DNA from: Humisphaera borealis
GTDB taxonomy: Bacteria > Planctomycetota > Phycisphaerae > Tepidisphaerales > Tepidisphaeraceae
Direction of reading: 5' to 3'
DNA: 64,000 bases
Assembly: GCF_015169395.1 (NCBI RefSeq)
Contig: NZ_CP063458.1
Span: forward strand, 3,348,001-3,412,000
In this document: positions 1,133 to 12,008 of the stretch, in pieces
How the letters are laid out: the number at the start of each line of letters is the position of its first letter
How positions within the stretch are numbered: the first letter of the stretch is position 1
The notes under the pieces: model-generated
Database searches by the model: none
What the model saw: the letters and a program-made list of their open reading frames with translations, nothing else
What the model was told of the DNA's origin: nothing
Program-made: the position numbers and the translations under genes

Positions 1133-3724
1133 GTGAGGACATACACCTCCAACTTCCGACGGACTTTTGCGATTCCCGCGAATCGAACTAAATACACGTA
1201 CGATGTGCTCGGCCGGTCGCTGACGGATGCGGTGACGACTCTCGGCAGCGGTGTGAACGGCGTGGTCCGCCGGCTGCAAACCTCTTACAACACGCAGGGT
1301 CTGCCGGAGAAGTTCACGAGCTACGACGCGGCCAGCAGCGGTAGCGTCATCAACGAAGTCCAGCGCGCCTACAACGGCCTCGGCCAGATCATCACCGAGT
1401 ACCAGGCCCACAGCGGCGCGGTGAATACTGGCTCCAGCCCGAAGGTGCAGTATGCTTACACCGAGATGGTCAGCGGCGCGAACCACAGCCGGCTGAAGAG
1501 CATGACGTACCCGAACGGGCGCGTCCTTCGCTACGAGTACAGCAGCGGCATCAACGCCGACACGAGCCGCATCAGCTTCCTCGCCGACGATTCGTCAGGT
1601 TCCGTCGGTACGCACCTTGAAGAGTACAGCTACCTGGGATCAGGCACGATCGTCCGCAAGAACCGCCCCGAGCCGGGCGTGGAACTGACCTACATCAAGC
1701 AGGGCGCCGAACCCGTCGCCGACGCCGGCGATCAGTACACGGGCTTGGACCACTTCGGCCGAATCGCCGACCAGCGCTGGCTGGTGACGTCCGGCGGCAG
1801 CCACACCGACCGCTGGACCTACGCCTACGACCGCAACTCCAACCCGCTGTACAAGAAGAACGAGTTGCAGTCGACGATGTCCGAGCTGTACCACGCCAAC
1901 AGCGGCAGCAGCGGCGACAACAACACGGCGTATGACAAGCTCAACCGCCTGACCGACTTCCGCCGGGGCACGCTCAGTAGCAGCGCCAACAACGGCAGCG
2001 GCCTCGATACGGTCAGCAGCGCCAGCCGCACGCAGGGCTGGAGCCTCGACGCATTGGGCAACTCCACATCCGTGTCGACCAACGGCACACCGGCCAGCCG
2101 CACGCACAACAGCAAGAACCAATCGACTGTGGTCGGTGGGAACAACCTGGCGTTCGATAGCGCCGGCAACACGACGACGGACGACAGCGGCAAGCAGCAC
2201 GTCTACGACGCCTGGAACCGGCTGGTGTCCACAATCGGCGATGCCTACAACGAACCAACGGTAGTGAGCAAATATGACGCGCTCGGCCGGCGGATCGTCT
2301 CCACCAACACCACTTTTCCGGCCGAGGAGCAGACGGTCGTGGATGTTGGCGACCTGTACTACTCGACCGCGTGGCAGGTGGTGGAGGAACGCAACACGAT
2401 CACCGACACTACCCTGGCCAATAGTGAGAACCCCGAGATCGTCGTTACGTTGGCGAATACATCGCAGAACGTCTGGGGCATCAACTACATCGACGATCTG
2501 GTGCTGAGGGACAAAGACGCCGACAACAGCAGCGGCACCGGCAGCCTCGGCAAGTCCGGCAGCGGCCTGGAGCAACGCCTGTACGCCCAGCAGGACGCCA
2601 ATCACAACGTGACGGCGTTGGTGAATACGTCGGGGACGGTGCAACAGCGATTCGTCTACGACCCCTACGGCGTGGCGACGGTACTGGACGCAAGCTGGTC
2701 CGGCACGACCGACGGCTACAACTGGCACTACCGCCACCAGGGAACGCGGTGGGAGTTCAACGCCGAGCTGTACGACGTGAGGAACCGATTCTACAGCCCG
2801 ACCCTGATGCGGTGGATGCAGGAGGATCCGGCGGGGTATGTGGATGGGGCGAGTCTATTGCAGTATGTCGGTGGCAATCCAATTGCATTCGTTGATCCAT
2901 GGGGGTTGCAAGCCGGTGTCGCAGTTCCTAGCGCTGGCAGTGGTGCTGGCGTCAACCCCAGTTCGCAGACAGGAAACGTCGCAGCTAGAGCAGCTGGGCG
3001 GGGAGTGGGCATGTTCCAGATTACGATGGAACTGATGGAAGCAGGAGCATTCAATTCCACGGTCGGCTATGAGTTTCAAATGGCACAACGATTGGGAGCT
3101 TCTGGCCTCTGCATTGATAGCCAGCGAGAAGTTTGGGCTGCTTGGCAGAAGTCCATGGAAGCCGGACGTGCGCACGATAGCGCGGTTATCGACGCTGCGT
3201 TGAACTGGCGGTCAATCCCAGCGCCAGCTCCAGGTGTAATGCTAATCACGCCGGGCACTCCGGCGGCAGGGAACCAATTTGGAACACTCGTCGCACAGAC
3301 CACGGCGCGCGATGCGTCGCGTGCGGCAGCAGCTCAGAGGGCGGCTTGTGCCGCAGCTGCCCAAGCCGATAGAGATGCGGCAGAGCAAGCTATGTTCGAT
3401 CGATGGAGCGACAATTACGTCGCTCGGCTCAGGCGCATGCAAGCAGCCAATAACGTAATCGCGAGTTCGACAGAAGGTTCATCATCAACAGGAGCAAGTG
3501 CAGGCGCTTCTGCCGGGTCCGGGGCCTCCGGCGGAAATCCGAGCACTCAACCAACGCCCAAGGGCTCCGCTGCTCTGGATCAACTCACCAGCATCGCAAA
3601 ATCCCAGAAGCGCCTTTTCCAAGGCGACGAGGAGGTGCCACGGATTATTGATCAGATAACAAAAAGCGAACGGCGTGTCAAGAATCAGTTGGATCGACCT
3701 TACGCACCTGACGATTGGGAGTGA
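1133..3724 (+). CDS. RHS/YD-repeat protein lacking its N-terminal part, with a variable C-terminal tip
   Basis: An 863-residue RHS protein. YD-type repeats (for example YTYDVLGR, YDKLNRL, YDAWNRLV) fill roughly residues 20-500. The RHS-associated core follows at about 505-595 (RFVYDPYG...RFYSPTLMRWMQEDP...) and closes with the typical DPWGL junction. In this family the core marks where the shell ends and an exchangeable toxin begins. The remaining ~265 residues are Ala/Gly/Ser-rich, end in a charged stretch (KSERRVKNQLDRP) and match no toxin I recognise. There is no signal peptide or carrier domain at the start, and repeat-like sequence begins abruptly near 1188 after an in-frame stop at 1076. 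This suggests a 5'-truncated or cassette-like copy. The DNA turns visibly more AT-rich in the tip. The next gene begins 3 bp after the stop. Confidence 0.85.
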   Translation: MRTYTSNFRRTFAIPANRTKYTYDVLGRSLTDAVTTLGSGVNGVVRRLQTSYNTQGLPEKFTSYDAASSGSVINEVQRAYNGLGQIITEYQAHSGAVNTGSSPKVQYAYTEMVSGANHSRLKSMTYPNGRVLRYEYSSGINADTSRISFLADDSSGSVGTHLEEYSYLGSGTIVRKNRPEPGVELTYIKQGAEPVADAGDQYTGLDHFGRIADQRWLVTSGGSHTDRWTYAYDRNSNPLYKKNELQSTMSELYHANSGSSGDNNTAYDKLNRLTDFRRGTLSSSANNGSGLDTVSSASRTQGWSLDALGNSTSVSTNGTPASRTHNSKNQSTVVGGNNLAFDSAGNTTTDDSGKQHVYDAWNRLVSTIGDAYNEPTVVSKYDALGRRIVSTNTTFPAEEQTVVDVGDLYYSTAWQVVEERNTITDTTLANSENPEIVVTLANTSQNVWGINYIDDLVLRDKDADNSSGTGSLGKSGSGLEQRLYAQQDANHNVTALVNTSGTVQQRFVYDPYGVATVLDASWSGTTDGYNWHYRHQGTRWEFNAELYDVRNRFYSPTLMRWMQEDPAGYVDGASLLQYVGGNPIAFVDPWGLQAGVAVPSAGSGAGVNPSSQTGNVAARAAGRGVGMFQITMELMEAGAFNSTVGYEFQMAQRLGASGLCIDSQREVWAAWQKSMEAGRAHDSAVIDAALNWRSIPAPAPGVMLITPGTPAAGNQFGTLVAQTTARDASRAAAAQRAACAAAAQADRDAAEQAMFDRWSDNYVARLRRMQAANNVIASSTEGSSSTGASAGASAGSGASGGNPSTQPTPKGSAALDQLTSIAKSQKRLFQGDEEVPRIIDQITKSERRVKNQLDRPYAPDDWE

Positions 3725-3727
3725 AAA

Positions 3728-4138
3728 ATGCTGAGTGAATCGCAAAAGGAATCAATCAACGAGGCGATCGGTTTCTTAAGAGAAGGCAGGTTTCCGGATG
3801 CGGAATTGTTGCTCATGGAACTTATTAAGGAAAATCCTTCGGATGGAGCAGTGAACTCTTACTTAGCATGGAGTAGGCACCTTCTCGATCGCGATTCGGA
3901 TGCAATAGAGCCAGCGCGCCGAGGCGTGCTGCTTGCGCCAAAATCGGAGAAGGCGTCAACGATTCTCTTTCATGTTCTTATGGCTCTAGGCAAAGCGCAC
4001 GAGGCGTTGCTTGAAATGTGGCGATTCCTGGGCCGAGATTCTCGAGGTGAGTACTTTCAACTATTGTCCGACTTGATGGGGGTCGAGGAACATGCGGACT
4101 CTAAGGAAAAGACTGCCATGGATGTTTCGAGCGACTAA
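3728..4138 (+). CDS. Small TPR-like protein, candidate immunity protein for the RHS tip
   Basis: A 136-residue acidic, helical protein. Residues ~8-110 read as about three tetratricopeptide-like helix pairs (EAIGFLREGRFPDAELLLMEL, then AIEPARRGVLLAPKSEKAST). There is no signal peptide, so it is probably cytoplasmic. The ATG lies 3 bp after the RHS stop, which implies co-translation. Its composition is AT-richer than the RHS core and matches the toxin tip. A small gene directly behind an RHS tip is usually the cognate immunity protein, and that role is inferred from position only. The last codons (KEKTAMDVS) lie in a DNA segment repeated 83 bp downstream. Confidence 0.7.
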   Translation: MLSESQKESINEAIGFLREGRFPDAELLLMELIKENPSDGAVNSYLAWSRHLLDRDSDAIEPARRGVLLAPKSEKASTILFHVLMALGKAHEALLEMWRFLGRDSRGEYFQLLSDLMGVEEHADSKEKTAMDVSSD

Positions 4139-4497: not shown

Positions 4498-5271
4498 TCA
4501 CGCCGCAGCGCGGTAGTAGTGCTTCAAGACGCAACCCAATCGTCGGCGGCAGACAATCTCGCCGGACTTCGGCGGGTCGCCCGGCGGCGCGATCAGGACT
4601 TGATTCTCTCGTCCTTGGTGCGGGCGTTCCGCGTGGTAGTGTTCGACGTACTCGCGAACCAGCAGATCGAAATGCTCCTGTCCGAAGATGACAAAGCGAT
4701 CAAGACATTCTTCTTGGATCGATCGGTTGAACCGCTCGACAAACGCGTTCATGTTCGGGGCTCGGATGGCAGTCCGCTTAACCTCGCATCCGGCGGCCTT
4801 CATTGCCTCATCGAAAGGCGCGGAAAACATGCCGTCGTTGTCGCGGATAAGATAGGATGCCGGCAGATTGATTGCCTTGGCGCGAGCAACAAACGCTTCT
4901 GCTTGAGCCATCATCCACTCGGCGGTTGGATTGAAGGCGCACGGCGACAGGAACACTCGCCGGGACGCGACGTGCAGGAAGACCAAAACGAAACACTGCC
5001 GAACGCCGGTGACCGTGACGATGTGCCGTGAAAAGAAATCGCATTGCCAGAGCGTCTCGGCGTGGGCCTTCATGAACTCGGCCCACGTTTAGACGTCGCG
5101 ACGCGGTTGCGGGCTGATGCCGGCTTCGCGCAAGGTGTTGACGACGTTCGATTGCGATGTCGTCACGCCGAGTTTGGCGAGTTCGCCGAGAATGCGGGTG
5201 TAGCCTCAGGCGTTCTCGCGGGCGAGTTTGAGGACAAGTTCGCGAAGTTCGTCAACCGATAGTATTGAAAC
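4498..5271 (-). pseudogene. DDE (rve-type) transposase remnant with two in-frame stops
   Basis: Integrase-core transposase of the IS3/IS481-like group common in planctomycetes. The C-terminal 191 residues are intact: first Asp in CDFFS, second in IRDNDGMF, Glu in NAFVERFNRS, then EECLDRFVIFG and the HYHAERPHQG signature. Read upstream in the same frame, homologous sequence continues (VDELRELVLKLAREN, GYTRILGELAKLGV) but is broken by TGA at 5208-5206, at a place where relatives have Trp, and by TAG/TAA-type TAA at 5091-5089. The start of the protein and the element ends are not visible. I consider the copy inactive and a sign of past mobile-element activity beside the RHS cassette. Confidence 0.8.
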
Positions 5272-5484: not shown

Positions 5485-5563
5485 AAGCTGACCTTTCCTT
5501 TTGCTCCATCGAATAGGCTACGGGGTAGGTGTGAACTCAGACATGTTGCCATTTGATCGCCAA

Positions 5564-5944
5564 TCAAATGGGTCGATTGTCACCACGGCAGCCGCTATCG
5601 GGGCACCAGTCGATCTCACCGCCACGAATCCAGAAATGGCACCGACAGTCGTTGACCTGAAGGACGGACGGTTCGACCGTTGGCCGATTGAGCCAGTCAA
5701 TGCTTACACGCCAGCGAGGTGACTTTCGCGCGGATAGATTCAACATGACCTTTTCTCCGCAGCCTCCGGGGCATAGAAAGCAAATCCATTTTTCGACCGG
5801 GCCGTCGCGGACGACGACAAGTCGGCCAGGCTTCAGTTGCTCCGGTGCCGGGTGGTCTCGCTGCACCCGCGCGACAAAATCGGGTCGCGGGATGATCCGG
5901 CACGCCACAAGAATGAATCGAATCGCTGATCGCATCGTTGTCAT
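5564..5944 (-). CDS. DUF6527 family protein (ubiquitin-like operon component)
   Basis: A 126-residue protein matching my memory of DUF6527, a short family repeatedly found beside ThiF/E2/ubiquitin-like genes. Visible marks are a zinc-knuckle-like C55-x2-C58-x3-C62 (WICFLCPGGCGEK), a central W/R-rich strand (SPRWRVSIDW) and a C-terminal C100-x-C102-H103 (NDCRCHFWIRGGEIDWC). The paired Cys/His suggest a metal-stabilised fold. No catalytic residues are known to me. Its ATG overlaps the TGA of the E1-JAB gene by 4 nt (ATGA), so translation is coupled. It probably serves as an accessory or target-binding part of the conjugation system. Function is inferred from context. Confidence 0.75.
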   Translation of the reverse strand: MTTMRSAIRFILVACRIIPRPDFVARVQRDHPAPEQLKPGRLVVVRDGPVEKWICFLCPGGCGEKVMLNLSARKSPRWRVSIDWLNRPTVEPSVLQVNDCRCHFWIRGGEIDWCPDSGCRGDNRPI

Positions 5945-7371
5945 CCCGTTCGATCAAGGAACGGCGACATGTCGCCGCGTCCCCAGTAGTGCTGTTCTAC
6001 ACATACGCGGCACGTGCCTTCCCGTGGCCCAGGTCGCTTCTCTCCCAGAAGACGATGCTTGTAGACACGGTGCGGCACCGACCCAGCCGAGCGATAACCG
6101 CTGAGGCGATGTAGCAGTTCGTCCACAGCCATGCAGGCCACATGTGTCGTGAAGGTGACGACCGCCGGATTGGGACGGCCTCCGCCACGCACATAGAGCT
6201 CGCCGCGCTCACGCAGCCGGTAATACTCGTCGGGATCGCGACGGAGTAGATCGTCTTCCTGGGCGGTCTTGGGATCGACGACCCCGCGGCAGAGAAGGCA
6301 GCGGTGGCCGGGGCCGACCACACTTACTCGGCCGTCGGCCATCGTGATCCGCGGGGGCGAGCCGTCGACGAAGTCGATACCGATTCCCATGTCGATGACC
6401 GGGATCAGGTAGAAATACGAAAGCCGGTTCAATAGCATTCGACCATCGTGATCGTCGGTGCAGGCGAAGATCACGTCACAAGCCTTGAGTGCGTTCCGGC
6501 AGGCCGGATCGCCTACCCAGCCCTTGAATGTTTCGACGCGCGCACCGAGCCCGATTTCTTCCATGCTGCGCTTGAGGATGTCGGTCTTGGCAAGTCCGCG
6601 ACGCCCGTCCTTGTCACCAACATCGCGCATGGTTGCGCCGTGCAGTCGGTTCAGGTTCGTGAGTTCAGCGGTATCGTCATCAACGGCGAAGATGCGTTGC
6701 GCTCCGAGCCTTGCGAGCAGCAGCCCGACGGCGCTGCCCGTGGCACCGCAGCCAATGATGCCGAAACGCAGCGCCGCAACGTCAGCATTGAGCGCCGGGC
6801 CAAAGGCGAGCGCCTGCCGTGCCAGCGCCTCGACATCACCGGCATTCTCCCGTCCTTCGAAATCGATGAGCAGGCGATCGCCGATCGATCGGATCATTGA
6901 GAGCGGCTTGTGGGTTTTCTTATTGAGCCACACGCGCCCGAACATCCGACGCGGCCCGGCAAGCACCAAGCTGCCCAGCATCTGCTCCGGGCCGTTTCGG
7001 TTTTGGGCGAGTTCGATCAGGGCCGGCTCGTCCGCATCATCCTGTGAAGAAAACCGGTCATACCCACCCGGATGTCCGTGGACATAGACGGGGATCATCC
7101 CGGTATCTCGCGCGCGTTTGAGAACGCGCGTGAAGGTTGCCGTCCGCGCCCGCACATGGTCGGGCGAACTCGTGATGACATCCTCCGCGGCCAGCGGAAT
7201 CACCTCCCGCGACAGCAGGCGAAGTTCGCCGTCGCGTTCCCACGGATCGGACTCGATCGCCGATGTGCCGCACAACAGGTAGGCGACGCCTTCATGGCCG
7301 CTAGCCGGTAAGACGGCCTTGCGAAGCTCGTGAAGGTGCCGCTCCTGGAGGGTGAGGGTGTGGCGGATCAC
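5941..7371 (-). CDS. Fused JAB/JAMM peptidase - E1-like (ThiF) adenylyltransferase
   Basis: A 476-residue two-domain enzyme. Residues ~20-160 form a JAB-type metalloprotease with an intact JAMM motif: H98-x-H100-P101, then S108-x2-D111 (VHGHPGGYDRFSSQDD), with E27 as the likely upstream acid. Residues ~195-470 are an E1/ThiF domain: the G207-x-G209-x2-G212 nucleotide loop (FGIIGCGATGS), acidic residues 231-233, NLNR at 239-242 and CTDDHDGR at 304-311. Two CxxC pairs (C358/C361, C454/C457) look like the E1 zinc site. By family knowledge, the E1 half would adenylate a ubiquitin-like C-terminus and pass it to an E2, while the JAB half would cleave ubiquitin-like bonds. Start and stop overlap both neighbours by 4 nt. 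It is probably cytoplasmic. Confidence 0.92.
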   Translation of the reverse strand: MIRHTLTLQERHLHELRKAVLPASGHEGVAYLLCGTSAIESDPWERDGELRLLSREVIPLAAEDVITSSPDHVRARTATFTRVLKRARDTGMIPVYVHGHPGGYDRFSSQDDADEPALIELAQNRNGPEQMLGSLVLAGPRRMFGRVWLNKKTHKPLSMIRSIGDRLLIDFEGRENAGDVEALARQALAFGPALNADVAALRFGIIGCGATGSAVGLLLARLGAQRIFAVDDDTAELTNLNRLHGATMRDVGDKDGRRGLAKTDILKRSMEEIGLGARVETFKGWVGDPACRNALKACDVIFACTDDHDGRMLLNRLSYFYLIPVIDMGIGIDFVDGSPPRITMADGRVSVVGPGHRCLLCRGVVDPKTAQEDDLLRRDPDEYYRLRERGELYVRGGGRPNPAVVTFTTHVACMAVDELLHRLSGYRSAGSVPHRVYKHRLLGEKRPGPREGTCRVCVEQHYWGRGDMSPFLDRTG

Positions 7372-8186
7372 TTCGTGTCCCTCAGGGCCGCGGAAATCCG
7401 CCGGATCATCGTGTGGATGCCGTCAACGCCGGCTCGCCAGTCGCTGTTGTGCCGGCTCCACTGCTGCCACTGCCGGCCGCCGAAATTGACCAAGACATCC
7501 GCCTTCTCCGGCCAGCCGGACGCGCCCTGCAGCTTGATCCAGGGAAAGCAGTAGAACATGTCCGGGCAGGCATCCGGATAGCCTGCAGGCAGGATCATCA
7601 GCACGTCCGTCGTGGCGTGATCGAAACGGCCGCCGGTGTTAAAGCCCTTGAATACGACTCCTTTCCTCTCGCCGTCGGTCACGGCTTCGACGACCATGTC
7701 GTGGTCGTCAAGAAAGCGCTGGTCCGACTCCGGCAGCACAAGGCACCGCTCACCGGCATTCGTGTCTTCCTTGCCGGTGTAGAAGCGTTCAACGCCCTTG
7801 GGCTCCAGCGGCACGGTCTGACCATCCGACAGGAGCAAGTCTTCCTGGGCGCGGCGTTCCTGCCACACGCGGTAGCCGGCCGGAATACCCGCGAGCCACC
7901 GAAGCTGCGTCTCCGTGATGCTGGCGCTTCCCCAGGGCTGGCGCCGGCCGTCCAACTCGAAGTTGAACGACCGATCGCTGCGGAAGGTAATAAAGATCTT
8001 GTGATCCAGCTCACGCAGATTGACCGTTTCCTCCAAGTCGATGTCTTCGAGCTGCCGGTCGGGGCCAAGGCAGAAAACGAGGTGCTCTTCGACCGGCTGC
8101 TTGCCGGCGAGGGTGAGGATTTGCCGCCCGGTCAAGACCGGATCGGCCGATTCGAAAGGTACTTTGTCGATTTCCAGCTTCTGCAT
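7368..8186 (-). CDS. Double ubiquitin-like (multiubiquitin) domain fused to an E2/UBC fold
   Basis: A 272-residue protein. Two beta-grasp, multiubiquitin-type repeats cover about 1-68 (EIDKVPFESADPVLTGRQIL...FITFRS) and 70-138 (FELDGRRQPWGSASIT...GVERFYTG). An E2/UBC-like domain follows at ~146-270 (LPESDQRFLDDHDM..., LPAGYPDACPDMFYC, WQQWSRHNSDWRAGVDG). Cys207 and Cys213 are the candidates for a thioester cysteine. I cannot settle which, or whether the site is degenerate. There is no C-terminal diglycine; the nearest processing-like point is G138. The start is ATG at 8186, preceded by AAGGA 7 nt upstream; a longer upstream frame exists but lacks this signal. It is the first gene of the operon and its TGA overlaps the E1-JAB ATG. 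Confidence 0.9.
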   Translation of the reverse strand: MQKLEIDKVPFESADPVLTGRQILTLAGKQPVEEHLVFCLGPDRQLEDIDLEETVNLRELDHKIFITFRSDRSFNFELDGRRQPWGSASITETQLRWLAGIPAGYRVWQERRAQEDLLLSDGQTVPLEPKGVERFYTGKEDTNAGERCLVLPESDQRFLDDHDMVVEAVTDGERKGVVFKGFNTGGRFDHATTDVLMILPAGYPDACPDMFYCFPWIKLQGASGWPEKADVLVNFGGRQWQQWSRHNSDWRAGVDGIHTMIRRISAALRDTK

Positions 8187-8316
8187 GACTGTCCTTCCCG
8201 CGGACCGGCAAGGTTGCCGCGAAAAACGATGCCCAAGATGAACCGGCTGCGGAACTCCCGCTGCCTGCCGTGCCCGAAAGCCCGGATGCGTTACGGAGAT
8301 CATTCGCTAAGTTCAT

Positions 8317-8340
8317 CAAGCAGTCAAGTGGCAGTGCTTG
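8317..8340. promoter_or_regulatory. Candidate operator palindrome in the divergent promoter region
   Basis: CAAGCAGT, 8-nt spacer, AGTGCTTG: 7 of 8 positions match as an inverted repeat. A second short palindrome, GGACC-N7-GGTCC, lies at 8382-8398. A TTGAAA (8338) and a TAGTGT (8360), 16 nt apart, resemble a weak plus-strand promoter overlapping the first palindrome. The XRE protein encoded next door is the natural candidate binder. This is sequence pattern only. Confidence 0.35.
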
Positions 8341-8421
8341 AAAAATTTAGCAGCCGGCATAGTGTTGGGGTTGAAGAAGATGGACCGGGACGCGGTCCGC
8401 ACTTTTACTGAATTGGATGCC

Positions 8422-8823
8422 ATGCCTGATGAGAAGGACTGCAACGCGGCCGACGGATCAAAAGGTCAACCACTGGGTGACTACCTCGCCAACGTCCGCA
8501 CGGCCAAGCAGATGTCGCTGCGGGATGTGGAGGAAGCCGCAGCCGGCGTCGTTTCCAACGCGTATCTAAGCCAGCTTGAGCATGGCCGTATCAGTAAGCC
8601 CTCTCCCAATATCCTGCATTGCCTTGCCCGCGTGTACGGCGTCGCCTACGAGACGCTGATGCAGAAGGCGGGCTATATCGCCGCCGCGGTAAACAACGAG
8701 ACGGGCTCCAAGCGCCACGGGCGCGTAGCAACATTTGCCAAGCAGAACCTCACGAACGAGGAAGAAGAATCGCTGCTGGAATATCTCGCATTCCTCCGTT
8801 CGAAAAAGGGGAGGAAGTCGTGA
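8422..8823 (+). CDS. XRE-family helix-turn-helix transcriptional regulator
   Basis: A 133-residue DNA-binding protein. The XRE/Cro-CI helix-turn-helix spans about residues 18-83 (LGDYLANVRTAKQMSLRDVEE, NAYLSQLEHGRISKPSPN, LHCLARVYGVAYETLM). A short charged tail follows, ending in LLEYLAFLRSKKGRK. The start is uncertain: ATG 8422 gives the usual short N-terminus, while ATG 8380 or TTG 8338 would extend it, and the TTG falls in a possible -35 box. The stop overlaps the GTG of the ImmA/IrrE gene by 4 nt (GTGA). The gene is divergent from the ubiquitin-like operon, so it probably represses both directions. Confidence 0.9.
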   Translation: MPDEKDCNAADGSKGQPLGDYLANVRTAKQMSLRDVEEAAAGVVSNAYLSQLEHGRISKPSPNILHCLARVYGVAYETLMQKAGYIAAAVNNETGSKRHGRVATFAKQNLTNEEEESLLEYLAFLRSKKGRKS

Positions 8824-9725
8824 CGCTCGATAGCCTTGACGATGACCAGTTGCGCCAGGTTCGCGATCACGCCCGCAAGGCGCTCGAAAAAGCTGGCGCG
8901 AAGGGATGCTTTCCGACGCCGGTCGACCAAGTGATCGCCGCGGCGAAGCACCTCGTGAACGCCCACGAGGAGATCGATGAAGGGTTCCTCGCCAAGGCCC
9001 GTAAGAAAGTTGGAGGCGCGCTCAAGCGTGCGCTATCCAAGGTGATGGGCGTCCTCGACGTCACCGCCCGCACAATGCATCTCGACAAGCTGGTGCCGAT
9101 CCACAAGCTGCCGTTTCTCAAGCTCCACGAGTTGGGACACGGCGTGCTTCCATGGCAGCGCGAGATGTTCAAACTCACCGAAGATTGTGAGTTGACCATC
9201 GCGCCTGAGGTCAGCGAACTGTTCGAGCGTGAGTCGAACGCCTTTGCGTCCGAGGTGCTCTTCCAGCTCGACAGCTTTACAGATGAAGCAGCTAGCGACG
9301 ACGTTCTGGGGCTGAAAACGCCCCTGCGCCTATCGAAGCGTTATGGCGCGTCCGTCTATTCGAGCATCCGTCGGTACGTCAGCACGAACGCACGTTCCTG
9401 CGCCGTCATCGTTCTGGAGCCGCCTGTCGCCTGTTCTGGCGATGGCTTCGTCGCCAAGCTTCGCCGCGTTGTCGTGTCAAATCAGTTCCACTTCACCTTT
9501 GGCGATATCCGGCTCGCCGAAGAGTTCACGCCCGATGATGAGATCGGCCGCATAGTGCCGGTTGGCGGTAGACGGATGTCGCGTCCCCGCCCCCTCGTGC
9601 TTACCGACCGCAACGGGTCGAAGCACGAGTGCGTTGCTGAGGCATTCGCCCACAAATACAACGTGTTCATCCTCGTTTGCCCAAAGGCGACGCTTACGAA
9701 AAAGATCGTCCTTATCGCAAGCTAG
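8820..9725 (+). CDS. ImmA/IrrE-type metallopeptidase
   Basis: A 301-residue protein. The zinc-protease motif H103-E-L-G-H107 (KLHELGHGV) is followed by acid E138 in the FERESNAFASE helix, the ImmA/IrrE arrangement. The GTG start at 8820 has GGGAGGAAG just upstream and overlaps the XRE stop, so the two are translationally coupled. By family knowledge, ImmA proteases cleave their partner XRE repressor on a stress signal and switch on an adjoining mobile or defence module (ICEBs1 ImmR/ImmA is the model). The C-terminal ~120 residues (VPVGGRRMSRPRPLVLT...CVAEAFAHKYNVFILVC) may be a sensing domain. Its likely job here is derepression of the divergent operon, which is inference. Confidence 0.88.
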   Translation: MTLDSLDDDQLRQVRDHARKALEKAGAKGCFPTPVDQVIAAAKHLVNAHEEIDEGFLAKARKKVGGALKRALSKVMGVLDVTARTMHLDKLVPIHKLPFLKLHELGHGVLPWQREMFKLTEDCELTIAPEVSELFERESNAFASEVLFQLDSFTDEAASDDVLGLKTPLRLSKRYGASVYSSIRRYVSTNARSCAVIVLEPPVACSGDGFVAKLRRVVVSNQFHFTFGDIRLAEEFTPDDEIGRIVPVGGRRMSRPRPLVLTDRNGSKHECVAEAFAHKYNVFILVCPKATLTKKIVLIAS

Positions 9726-9950
9726 TTCAGCAACCAGGCGGCACGGTGACACTCATGCCATCGGTCGCAGTGATTGGGTACTCCCCATACTTCTCCGCTT
9801 GATGTAATAGCGAATCGCCAATAACAAGACCTGCCGTGCGTGCGGCTGCGGTCTTCGACTCGGGCGATGCCGATTCAACCCTTGCTCCCTTCGCGTGCGG
9901 AAGCTTACCGGCCGCGGATGGTTTAGGAGGCAAGTGAAGATCACGATGAT

Positions 9951-10697: not shown

Positions 10698-12008
10698 AGG
10701 GCAATCGCATCTCCTTTTGTCGATGGTTGTGTTTTGTACGGGTTGCGCTTTCTAACTTCTCTCGCTATCACTCCTTCACCGGTCGCGAAGCTTCGCTGGT
10801 AACAACTTTCATCTCCTGAAACGGAGCTTCGCCATGGATGGCCCTGCGACCAGTGGTACCCTGCGCGCGTTTTCCAACCTCCCCGATCCTCGCGGCTGCA
10901 ACGTGATTCACAAACTCCACGACATCCTCGTCATCTCCGTCTGCGCCGTCATCTGCGGTGCCGACGGCTGGGTCGACGTTGAACTCTATGGCAAGAGCAA
11001 GCTCTCCTGGCTGCGAACCTTCCTGGATCTTCCCCACGGCATCCCGTCTCACGACACCTTCGGTCGCGTCTTCGCCAAGCTCCATCCCGACGCCTTCGAG
11101 CAGTGTTTCAACGCCTGGGTCGGCGCGATCGCACAGTCCGCCGGCGGACGACTGATCGCGATCGACGGCAAGGCCATCCGCCGGTCCTTCGAACACGCCT
11201 GGGCCAGGAACAACATGACCCACATGGTCAGCGCGTTCGTCGACGCCCACCGGATGGTCTTCGGCCAGGTCGCCGTGGATGACAAGAGCAATGAGATCGA
11301 GGCGATCCCGCGGCTTTTGGGCCTGTTAGACATTCAGGACGCGACGGTGACGATCGATGCCGCCGGCTGCCAGACGCAGATCGCCAGACAGATCGTCGAT
11401 GCCGGCGGCAACTACGTGCTGTCGGTGAAGGAGAACCAGCCGAGGACCAGGCTTCGCCTCGTCCGACGCTGCACGCGAAGGTCAGGAAGCTGCTGGACGA
11501 AGCGATCCTGAGCGGCATGAAGGACGTGAGCCACGGCGTCCACGAGGAGTTCGACGCCGACCACGGCCGGCTGGACACCCGCAAAGTGTGGGTGATGGAC
11601 GAAGTGCACTGGCTCGGCGACCTATGTCAGCAGTGGCCGGGACTGGCCGGCGTGATCGCGGTCGAACGCAAGCGGGAGGTGCTTGCCGGCAAGAGCAGCG
11701 TCGAGCGGCATTACTTCATCAGCAGCGTCGCAGGGACCGACGCCAGGGCGATGGCGGCGGCGATCCGCGGCCACTGGGCCATCGAGAACAAGCTGCACTG
11801 GCAACTGGACGTGAGCTTCCGCGAGGACGAGCGGCGGATCCGCAAAGGCTATGGTGCGGAGAACTACTCCCGGTTGTGCCGGCTGACGCTCAATCTTCTC
11901 AAGCGGGACAGGAGCATCAAAAACGGGATCCACGGGAAACGGTTAAAGGCAGGTTGGGACGAGCACTACCTGCTCCGTCTGCTAACGACCTGAACATGCA
12001 ATCGCCCT
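10698..12008 (+). mobile_element. ISAs1-family insertion sequence with imperfect terminal repeats and 12-bp flanking repeats
   Basis: A 1.31-kb element. The left end AGGGCAATCGCAT (10698-10710) and right end ATGCAATCGCCCT (11996-12008) are inverted matches at 11 of 13 positions. Immediately outside them the same 12 bp, GCGGCAGGGCTG, occurs at 10686-10697 and 12009-12020, as expected for a target-site duplication, although ISAs1 duplications are usually nearer 8-10 bp. The single transposase gene inside is frameshifted. Confidence 0.75.
10834..11993 (+). pseudogene. ISAs1-family transposase, frameshifted
   Basis: The N-terminal DDE_Tnp_1-associated region (FSNLPDPRGCNVIHKLHDIL) and catalytic core (GRLIAIDGKAIRRSF, TIDAAGCQTQIA, LSVKENQP) are read in one frame to about 11442. 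The rest (DEAILSGMKDVSHG, FISSV, IRGHWAIENKLHWQLDVSF, ending in LRLLTT) is read in another. The join is explained by 23 extra nucleotides at 11443-11465, between the codons for QP and TLHAKVRKLLDEA, giving a +2 shift. That insert contains a small inverted repeat (CGAGG/CCTCG). Restoring the frame would give a full-length ISAs1 transposase, so this copy is probably inactive. A sequencing artefact of 23 nt seems unlikely. Confidence 0.85.

Follow-up and report, generated by a model that had tools for sequence, protein, structure and literature searches.

The window analysed here, a 64,000-nucleotide stretch of a planctomycete genome that consists of a single contig of 7.19 Mb, carries an operon that very probably belongs to the Bub (bacterial ubiquitination-like) family, is under the control of CapH and CapP and is carried as a mobile five-gene cassette. 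The operon is an intact Bub member from a planctomycete, and the type of system is already known. On the minus strand lie genes for a 272-residue fusion of two ubiquitin-like domains to an E2 (UBL-UBL-E2, equivalent to BubA plus BubB; 7368–8186), a 476-residue JAMM(JAB)-E1 fusion (JAB-E1, equivalent to BubCD; 5941–7371) and a 126-residue DUF6527 protein, the probable equivalent of BubE (5564–5944). A preliminary description of the region had reported these three open reading frames, and all are present, on the minus strand, where it had placed them. Its limits, 5564–8186, were too narrow, as two plus-strand genes at 8422–9725 belong to the same cassette. These are divergent from the trio and encode a 133-residue CapH-like HTH repressor (8422–8823) and a 301-residue CapP-like ImmA/IrrE metallopeptidase (8820–9725), so that the unit comprises five genes. 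The main additions to the preliminary description are this five-gene unit, an invariant junction glycine (Gly145) and a list of residues, together with an E2 that has no catalytic Cys and the finding that the cassette is mobile and under purifying selection.

Neighbouring genes of the minus-strand trio share four bases each. The ATGA-type overlaps described earlier apply to JAB-E1 and DUF6527 only; UBL-UBL-E2 and JAB-E1 overlap by GTGA, the start codon of JAB-E1 being the GTG at 7371, and capH and capP also overlap by GTGA. The true start of the UBL-UBL-E2 gene is likely the ATG at 8186, because the sister locus L003 carries 1-nt insertions and deletions immediately upstream. A longer version starting at ATG 8303 was rejected, as its frame upstream of 8186 is broken by these indels. 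Conservation with L003 backs the capH start at 8422, while a TTG start at 8338 was discarded as it falls within an inverted repeat (see below) and the stretch to 8422 is poorly conserved. Profile searches identified the window locus as the sole one in the genome with Prok-E2_E and DUF6527, and UBL-UBL-E2 is the sole Multi_ubiq protein of the genome.

Pfam assigned two Multi_ubiq domains (3.5e-22) and a Prok-E2_E domain (2e-40) to UBL-UBL-E2. The PDB relatives of the UBL half identified by phmmer are the multi-ubiquitin proteins 8u38, 9d5b and 9d59, while those of the E2 half are Citrobacter BubB (9eav_D and 9eae_C). These assignments place the first gene inside the ubiquitin-like/E2 families, and the operon, as expected of a Bub member, encodes a multi-ubiquitin UBL protein. 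The second UBL spans residues from about 74 to 139 and the E2 residues 151–269, with a flexible junction (141–148) that contains Gly145 between them. Structure prediction drew on an alignment of proteins from the window and from other loci. The AlphaFold2 model of UBL-UBL-E2 is of moderate quality (pLDDT 64), with the first UBL poorly modelled. Its best Foldseek match is BubB 9eae_C (rmsd 1.6 Å over 122 columns, TMt 0.85), onto which the E2 half superposed. The linker 141–148 was modelled at low confidence, as expected of an exposed joint that can be cut, low confidence alone being no proof of flexibility.

The column of Gly145, at the UBL/E2 junction, contains Gly in 26/26 aligned UBL proteins. 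Alignment programs may favour identical residues; the ends of separately encoded UBLs are independent of this bias. In Synechocystis pSYSX, Nostoc pC052_E and the planctomycete locus L042 the separate UBL stops directly after the junction Gly, with C-terminal ends such as TTTEG and QTEG, and the remaining separate UBLs extend 2–8 residues past it. For L065, a relative of the crystallised proteins on a Citrobacter plasmid, the junction residue is Gly229, the precise end of the construct named in the title of PDB entry 9ea8, BubA(155-229). As the junction Gly is invariant and both some of the split UBLs and BubA(155-229) end there, the fusion is probably a precursor that is cut after this residue. 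A more tentative proposal, which we regard as possible, is that the fusion is a built-in polyprotein supplying modifier and E2 in a 1:1 ratio. Release by DUF6527 and/or the JAMM domain through a cut after Gly145 would then make a protease step within a damage-induced operon, rather than E2 synthesis, the start of conjugation; or else the fused UBL might stay uncut and work in cis on the E2 to which it is joined. If true, each of these arrangements would be a control step that is not known to have been described for bacterial ubiquitin-like pathways.

The E2 domain displays the motif W243-S244-R245-H246 (WSRH), corresponding to a Ser-x-His motif in Bub-type relatives. Ser occupies the Ser244 column in 28/29 of the E2 sequences compared, the exception being a Cys in the outlier locus L056. 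No conserved Cys was found in the E2 domain, the cysteines of the window protein not being kept among the sequences compared. The earlier assignment as an E2 is correct as to family, Prok-E2_E of the BubB type, but it had missed that Ser, rather than Cys, is found at the conserved motif. In L056 (4722–5246, G041) a related E2 adjoining a JAB-E1 carries Cys within WWCYE at the Ser column and may link the cysteine and serine chemistries. The Bub E1 and E2 reportedly act via oxyester intermediates.

JAB-E1 was assigned to ThiF (1.4e-30) and Prok-JAB (1.8e-6) by Pfam, and its closest PDB relative in phmmer searches is Citrobacter BubCD (9ea4_A; 1.2e-31 over residues 9–428). The JAMM site reads H98-x-H100-x7-S108-x2-D111, the E1 domain has GCGATGS at 207, and two CxxC pairs are located at 358/361 and 454/457. 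His98, His100, Ser108 and Asp111, together with an upstream Glu, are kept in 27/31 aligned sequences, the other four lacking the domain, being fragmentary or aligning poorly. Gly, Asp, Arg and Lys columns of the E1 nucleotide site are nearly invariant. The window contains a BubCD-type E1 fused to a JAMM domain, the active-site residues being intact by column counts, and neighbourhood comparison found this order of genes in distant genomes too. The mutated Asp104 of 9ea8 and 9eae has the number of the JAMM Asp in the L065 protein. Both CxxC pairs are kept in the window clade and lost in Citrobacter BubCD; by analogy with ThiF/MoeB, they probably bind zinc. The alignment showed no conserved Cys, Ser or Thr column that stood out as the E1 acceptor residue. 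In an E1 tree, midpoint-rooted without an outgroup, the window protein groups with the planctomycete locus L041 and with cyanobacterial and proteobacterial plasmid cassettes, and the Citrobacter branch stands apart.

The third gene matches DUF6527 in Pfam (3.3e-24), as does the third gene of the Citrobacter plasmid locus (1e-31), showing that the two operons share a third-gene family. An alignment of 18 planctomycete, cyanobacterial and proteobacterial sequences revealed invariant residues at C58, P59, C62, P76, W78, P92, S93, C100, H103 and W113; among these, the pattern of C58, C62, S93, C100 and H103 fits a metal site, a Ser-His dyad or both. The AlphaFold2 model (pLDDT 82) predicts an N-terminal helix (2–14) and a β-rich body. 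Profile search, Foldseek and VIA-align found no credible solved relative, the weak rows having Z ≤ 3.5. In the viral fold library BFVD, two small viral proteins, A0A8E7FZU2 (E 7e-7) and A0A7S5UXZ9 (E 3e-4), have a fold like that of the model and could be virus-borne relatives. DUF6527 is also found at L050, L051 and L054, beside E1-like proteins that gave no JAMM match and had no Prok-E2_E gene detected in their vicinity, which suggests a second type of operon that uses this family. A literature search on DUF6527 and BubE returned nothing useful.

Bub operons are said to encode a family of Ser-His proteases, and from the residue pattern we lean towards a protease role for DUF6527. As the model matches nothing solved, this role has no structural support here. 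An alternative, which we hold to be possible but distinctly less probable, is that DUF6527 is a zinc-binding, E3-like adaptor that picks targets and has no protease activity, the JAMM domain performing all of the cutting; this would depart from the preferred explanation only as to what the third gene does. The role of DUF6527, undefined according to the preliminary description, is not wholly so: the section of Iyer et al. 2006 (PMC1779556) on this operon type proposed a Zn-finger/E3-like adaptor for its Cys-rich protein, sll6052 of Synechocystis. This is probably the DUF6527 gene of the Synechocystis locus L061, as it is small and Cys-rich and from that organism. The invariance of C58, C62, C100 and H103, which fit a metal site, and a fold like nothing known are consistent with an adaptor. 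The invariant S93 and H103 also fit the Ser-His dyad that Ye et al. are reported to describe for a protease of Bub operons, and beyond UBL-E2 and JAB-E1 the Citrobacter operon conserves DUF6527 alone; both observations argue for the protease.

The lack of a catalytic Cys bears on a second alternative, in which the E2-like domain would be an RWD-like module that binds the UBL without being active itself. The UBL would then not be cut off, the fusion would serve as a scaffold, and JAB-E1 would act alone, for example in ThiF/MoeB-like sulfur transfer or a small-molecule reaction. The relevant section of Iyer et al. 2006 (PMC1779556) indeed read the Cys-less E2-like domain as catalytically inactive, and the E1s of the window clade retain the paired CxxC typical of ThiF/MoeB. 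We nevertheless consider this quite improbable: Ser-x-His is kept as strictly as an active site, with Cys in the same column of one outlier; the invariant junction Gly is where split UBLs naturally end; separate E2 genes adjoin separate UBL genes elsewhere; and the solved Bub complexes (PDB) contain E1 with E2 and E1 with UBL. The prospect that the operon is instead a Bil (BilABCD, ISG15-like) antiphage operon is slighter still. The operon does encode a tandem-UBL modifier together with E1, E2 and JAMM, and the UBLs match the 8u38 chain, named Ubl-BilA by its depositors. The Bil E2, however, is of the Cys type (CEHH motif; PMC11354881), and the Bil E1 (BilD) and JAMM (BilC) are encoded by separate genes, whereas the window combines a Ser E2 with a single JAMM-E1 open reading frame and DUF6527, and its E1 and E2 are matched best by BubCD and BubB.

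PADLOC identified capH (1.2e-4, scored on the longer open reading frame 8338–8823) and capP (2.3e-12). The CapH-like protein matches HTH_31 in Pfam. The CapP-like translation carries HELGH and matches Peptidase_M78 at 9e-4, slightly below the curated Pfam cut-off, the PADLOC capP match being clear. The two genes show the arrangement of CapH and CapP, an HTH protein followed by an HExxH ImmA/IrrE peptidase, adjoining the operon promoter and divergent from the operon with a shared intergenic region. A repeat search between the divergent genes identified a strandless inverted repeat (8306–8351), GCTAAGTTCATCAAGCA-N12-TGCTTGAAAAATTTAGC, with 17-nt arms (8306–8322 and 8335–8351) that are 82% complementary. 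L003 contains the same repeat with arms of 23 nt, and the pattern derived from it occurs once in the 7.19 Mb genome; we regard it as a candidate CapH operator. Plasmids of Pseudanabaena, Synechocystis, Nostoc and Jiella carry a divergent HTH and ImmA/IrrE pair next to the promoter, while in Methylomagnum and Shinella plasmids the pair lies on the same side, with two genes inserted between. On the Jiella plasmid (L064, 7400–9841) a second such pair, with a GNAT and a small regulator, is found downstream of the cassette, and in Shinella (L063) a GNAT and small-regulator insert lies upstream of the UBL gene. CapW or CapH with CapP occurs at 219/544 Bub operons, and ssDNA activates CapP, which cleaves CapH (PMC13373217).

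In blastn comparison with L003, only 5519–9766, the region of the five genes, matches (91%), and the flanks are unrelated. All five genes have dN/dS of 0.10–0.14 in this comparison, and the arrangement therefore does not consist of chance open reading frames. The cassette is mobile and under purifying selection. IS remnants occur on both sides, an rve_3 integrase-core fragment (4498–5073, minus strand) on one and a DDE_Tnp_1 transposase split across two frames (10834–11993, plus strand) on the other. At 1133–4138 (plus strand) an RHS-repeat protein of 863 residues is directly followed by a small TPR-like open reading frame (3728–4138), in what looks like a polymorphic-toxin/immunity style. The nearest named relative with the cassette is a Phycisphaerales MAG. 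The distribution is sparse and patchy, with Prok-E2_E above cut-off in 13/392 genomes of a phylum sample, and relatives of UBL-E2 occur in 166 plasmid records, of which 71 are conjugative. For JAB-E1, one weak partial match was found in phages and none in viral contigs. Conservation of the five-gene cassette with CapH and CapP extends from planctomycetes to plasmids of cyanobacteria and proteobacteria. In Nostoc pC052_E (L066, 1741–10810) it lies in a defence island, between a restriction-modification pair and a nucleotidyltransferase with a SAVED-domain gene (CBASS-like). The sister cassette is adjoined by a 425-residue protein (L003, 6273–7550) whose C-terminal part appears, by eye only, restriction-endonuclease-like.

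In the working that we propose, CapH would act at the inverted repeat to keep the divergent promoter, shared by both transcription units, closed until ssDNA or DNA damage activates CapP, whereupon cleavage of CapH would allow expression of the operon. The JAMM domain and/or DUF6527 would cut the UBL-UBL-E2 precursor behind Gly145, which would release the E2 from a double-UBL modifier whose C-terminal Gly is now free. Once Gly145 is adenylated by the E1 domain, the UBL would be linked to Ser244 of the E2 by an oxyester in place of a cysteine thioester, and from there would presumably pass to a target. Removal of the UBL may be mediated by the JAMM domain, and perhaps by DUF6527, the division of labour between the two proteases being conjectural. 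Gly145, Ser244, Asp111, Ser93 and His103 are precise residues at which a ubiquitin-like pathway without an E2 cysteine may be probed, and the split version on Synechocystis pSYSX, in a model strain, would be convenient for functional tests. The operon may have an antiviral or stress role; phage defence is offered as a hypothesis, since, according to PMC13373217, no protection against phage has been demonstrated for Bub operons.

Protein families, PDB relatives, the predicted UBL-E2 fold, active residues and gene order agree, computationally, with the earlier view that the operon serves ubiquitin-like conjugation and has E2, E1 and JAMM parts. That view had called the Bil/Bub systems related; as to Bub, the operon is itself a member, its closest structures being BubB and BubCD. 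The window adds an example, from a planctomycete (Phycisphaerales-type) genome, of a Bub operon whose active sites are intact. Structures of the Citrobacter proteins BubA, BubB and BubCD are available (PDB 9ea4, 9ea8, 9eae and 9eav; Ye et al. 2026 and Gong et al. 2025, both as cited in PMC13373217). The Citrobacter plasmid locus has the same order of fused UBL-E2, JAB-E1 and DUF6527, the E2 Ser-x-His, the junction Gly and the JAMM and E1 sites. It differs in encoding three UBL domains rather than two, in a BubCD without the paired CxxC that the window E1 keeps, and in two other upstream genes where the window has CapH and CapP as regulators; identity between the proteins is low, and the host of the window operon is a planctomycete. 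Compared with Bil (BilABCD), the operon shares tandem UBLs, E1, E2 and JAMM, but Bil has a Cys E2, separate genes and no DUF6527. The CapH and CapP pairs of CBASS and other defence operons likewise combine an HTH repressor with an ImmA/IrrE peptidase adjoining the operon promoter, while the window pair adjoins a Bub operon, a pairing that is known already (PMC13373217).

The preliminary description rightly held that operons of this kind were known from comparative genomics, the layout being type 6e of Iyer, Burroughs and Aravind 2006 (PMC1779556). In the section of that account on type 6e, one to three UBLs have an optional C-terminal E2-like domain without Cys, JAB is N-terminal to E1, and a small Cys-rich protein is present, with sll6052 as the Synechocystis example. 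The same section makes no mention of a CapH/CapP pair and reads the E2 as inactive. The loci of Synechocystis pSYSX (L061) and Nostoc pC052_E (L066) have the same five genes in the same orientation, CapP and CapH being divergent from UBL, E2, JAB-E1 and DUF6527, with about 47% identity to UBL-E2; in contrast to the window, UBL and E2 are separate genes there, and the UBL ends exactly at the Gly.
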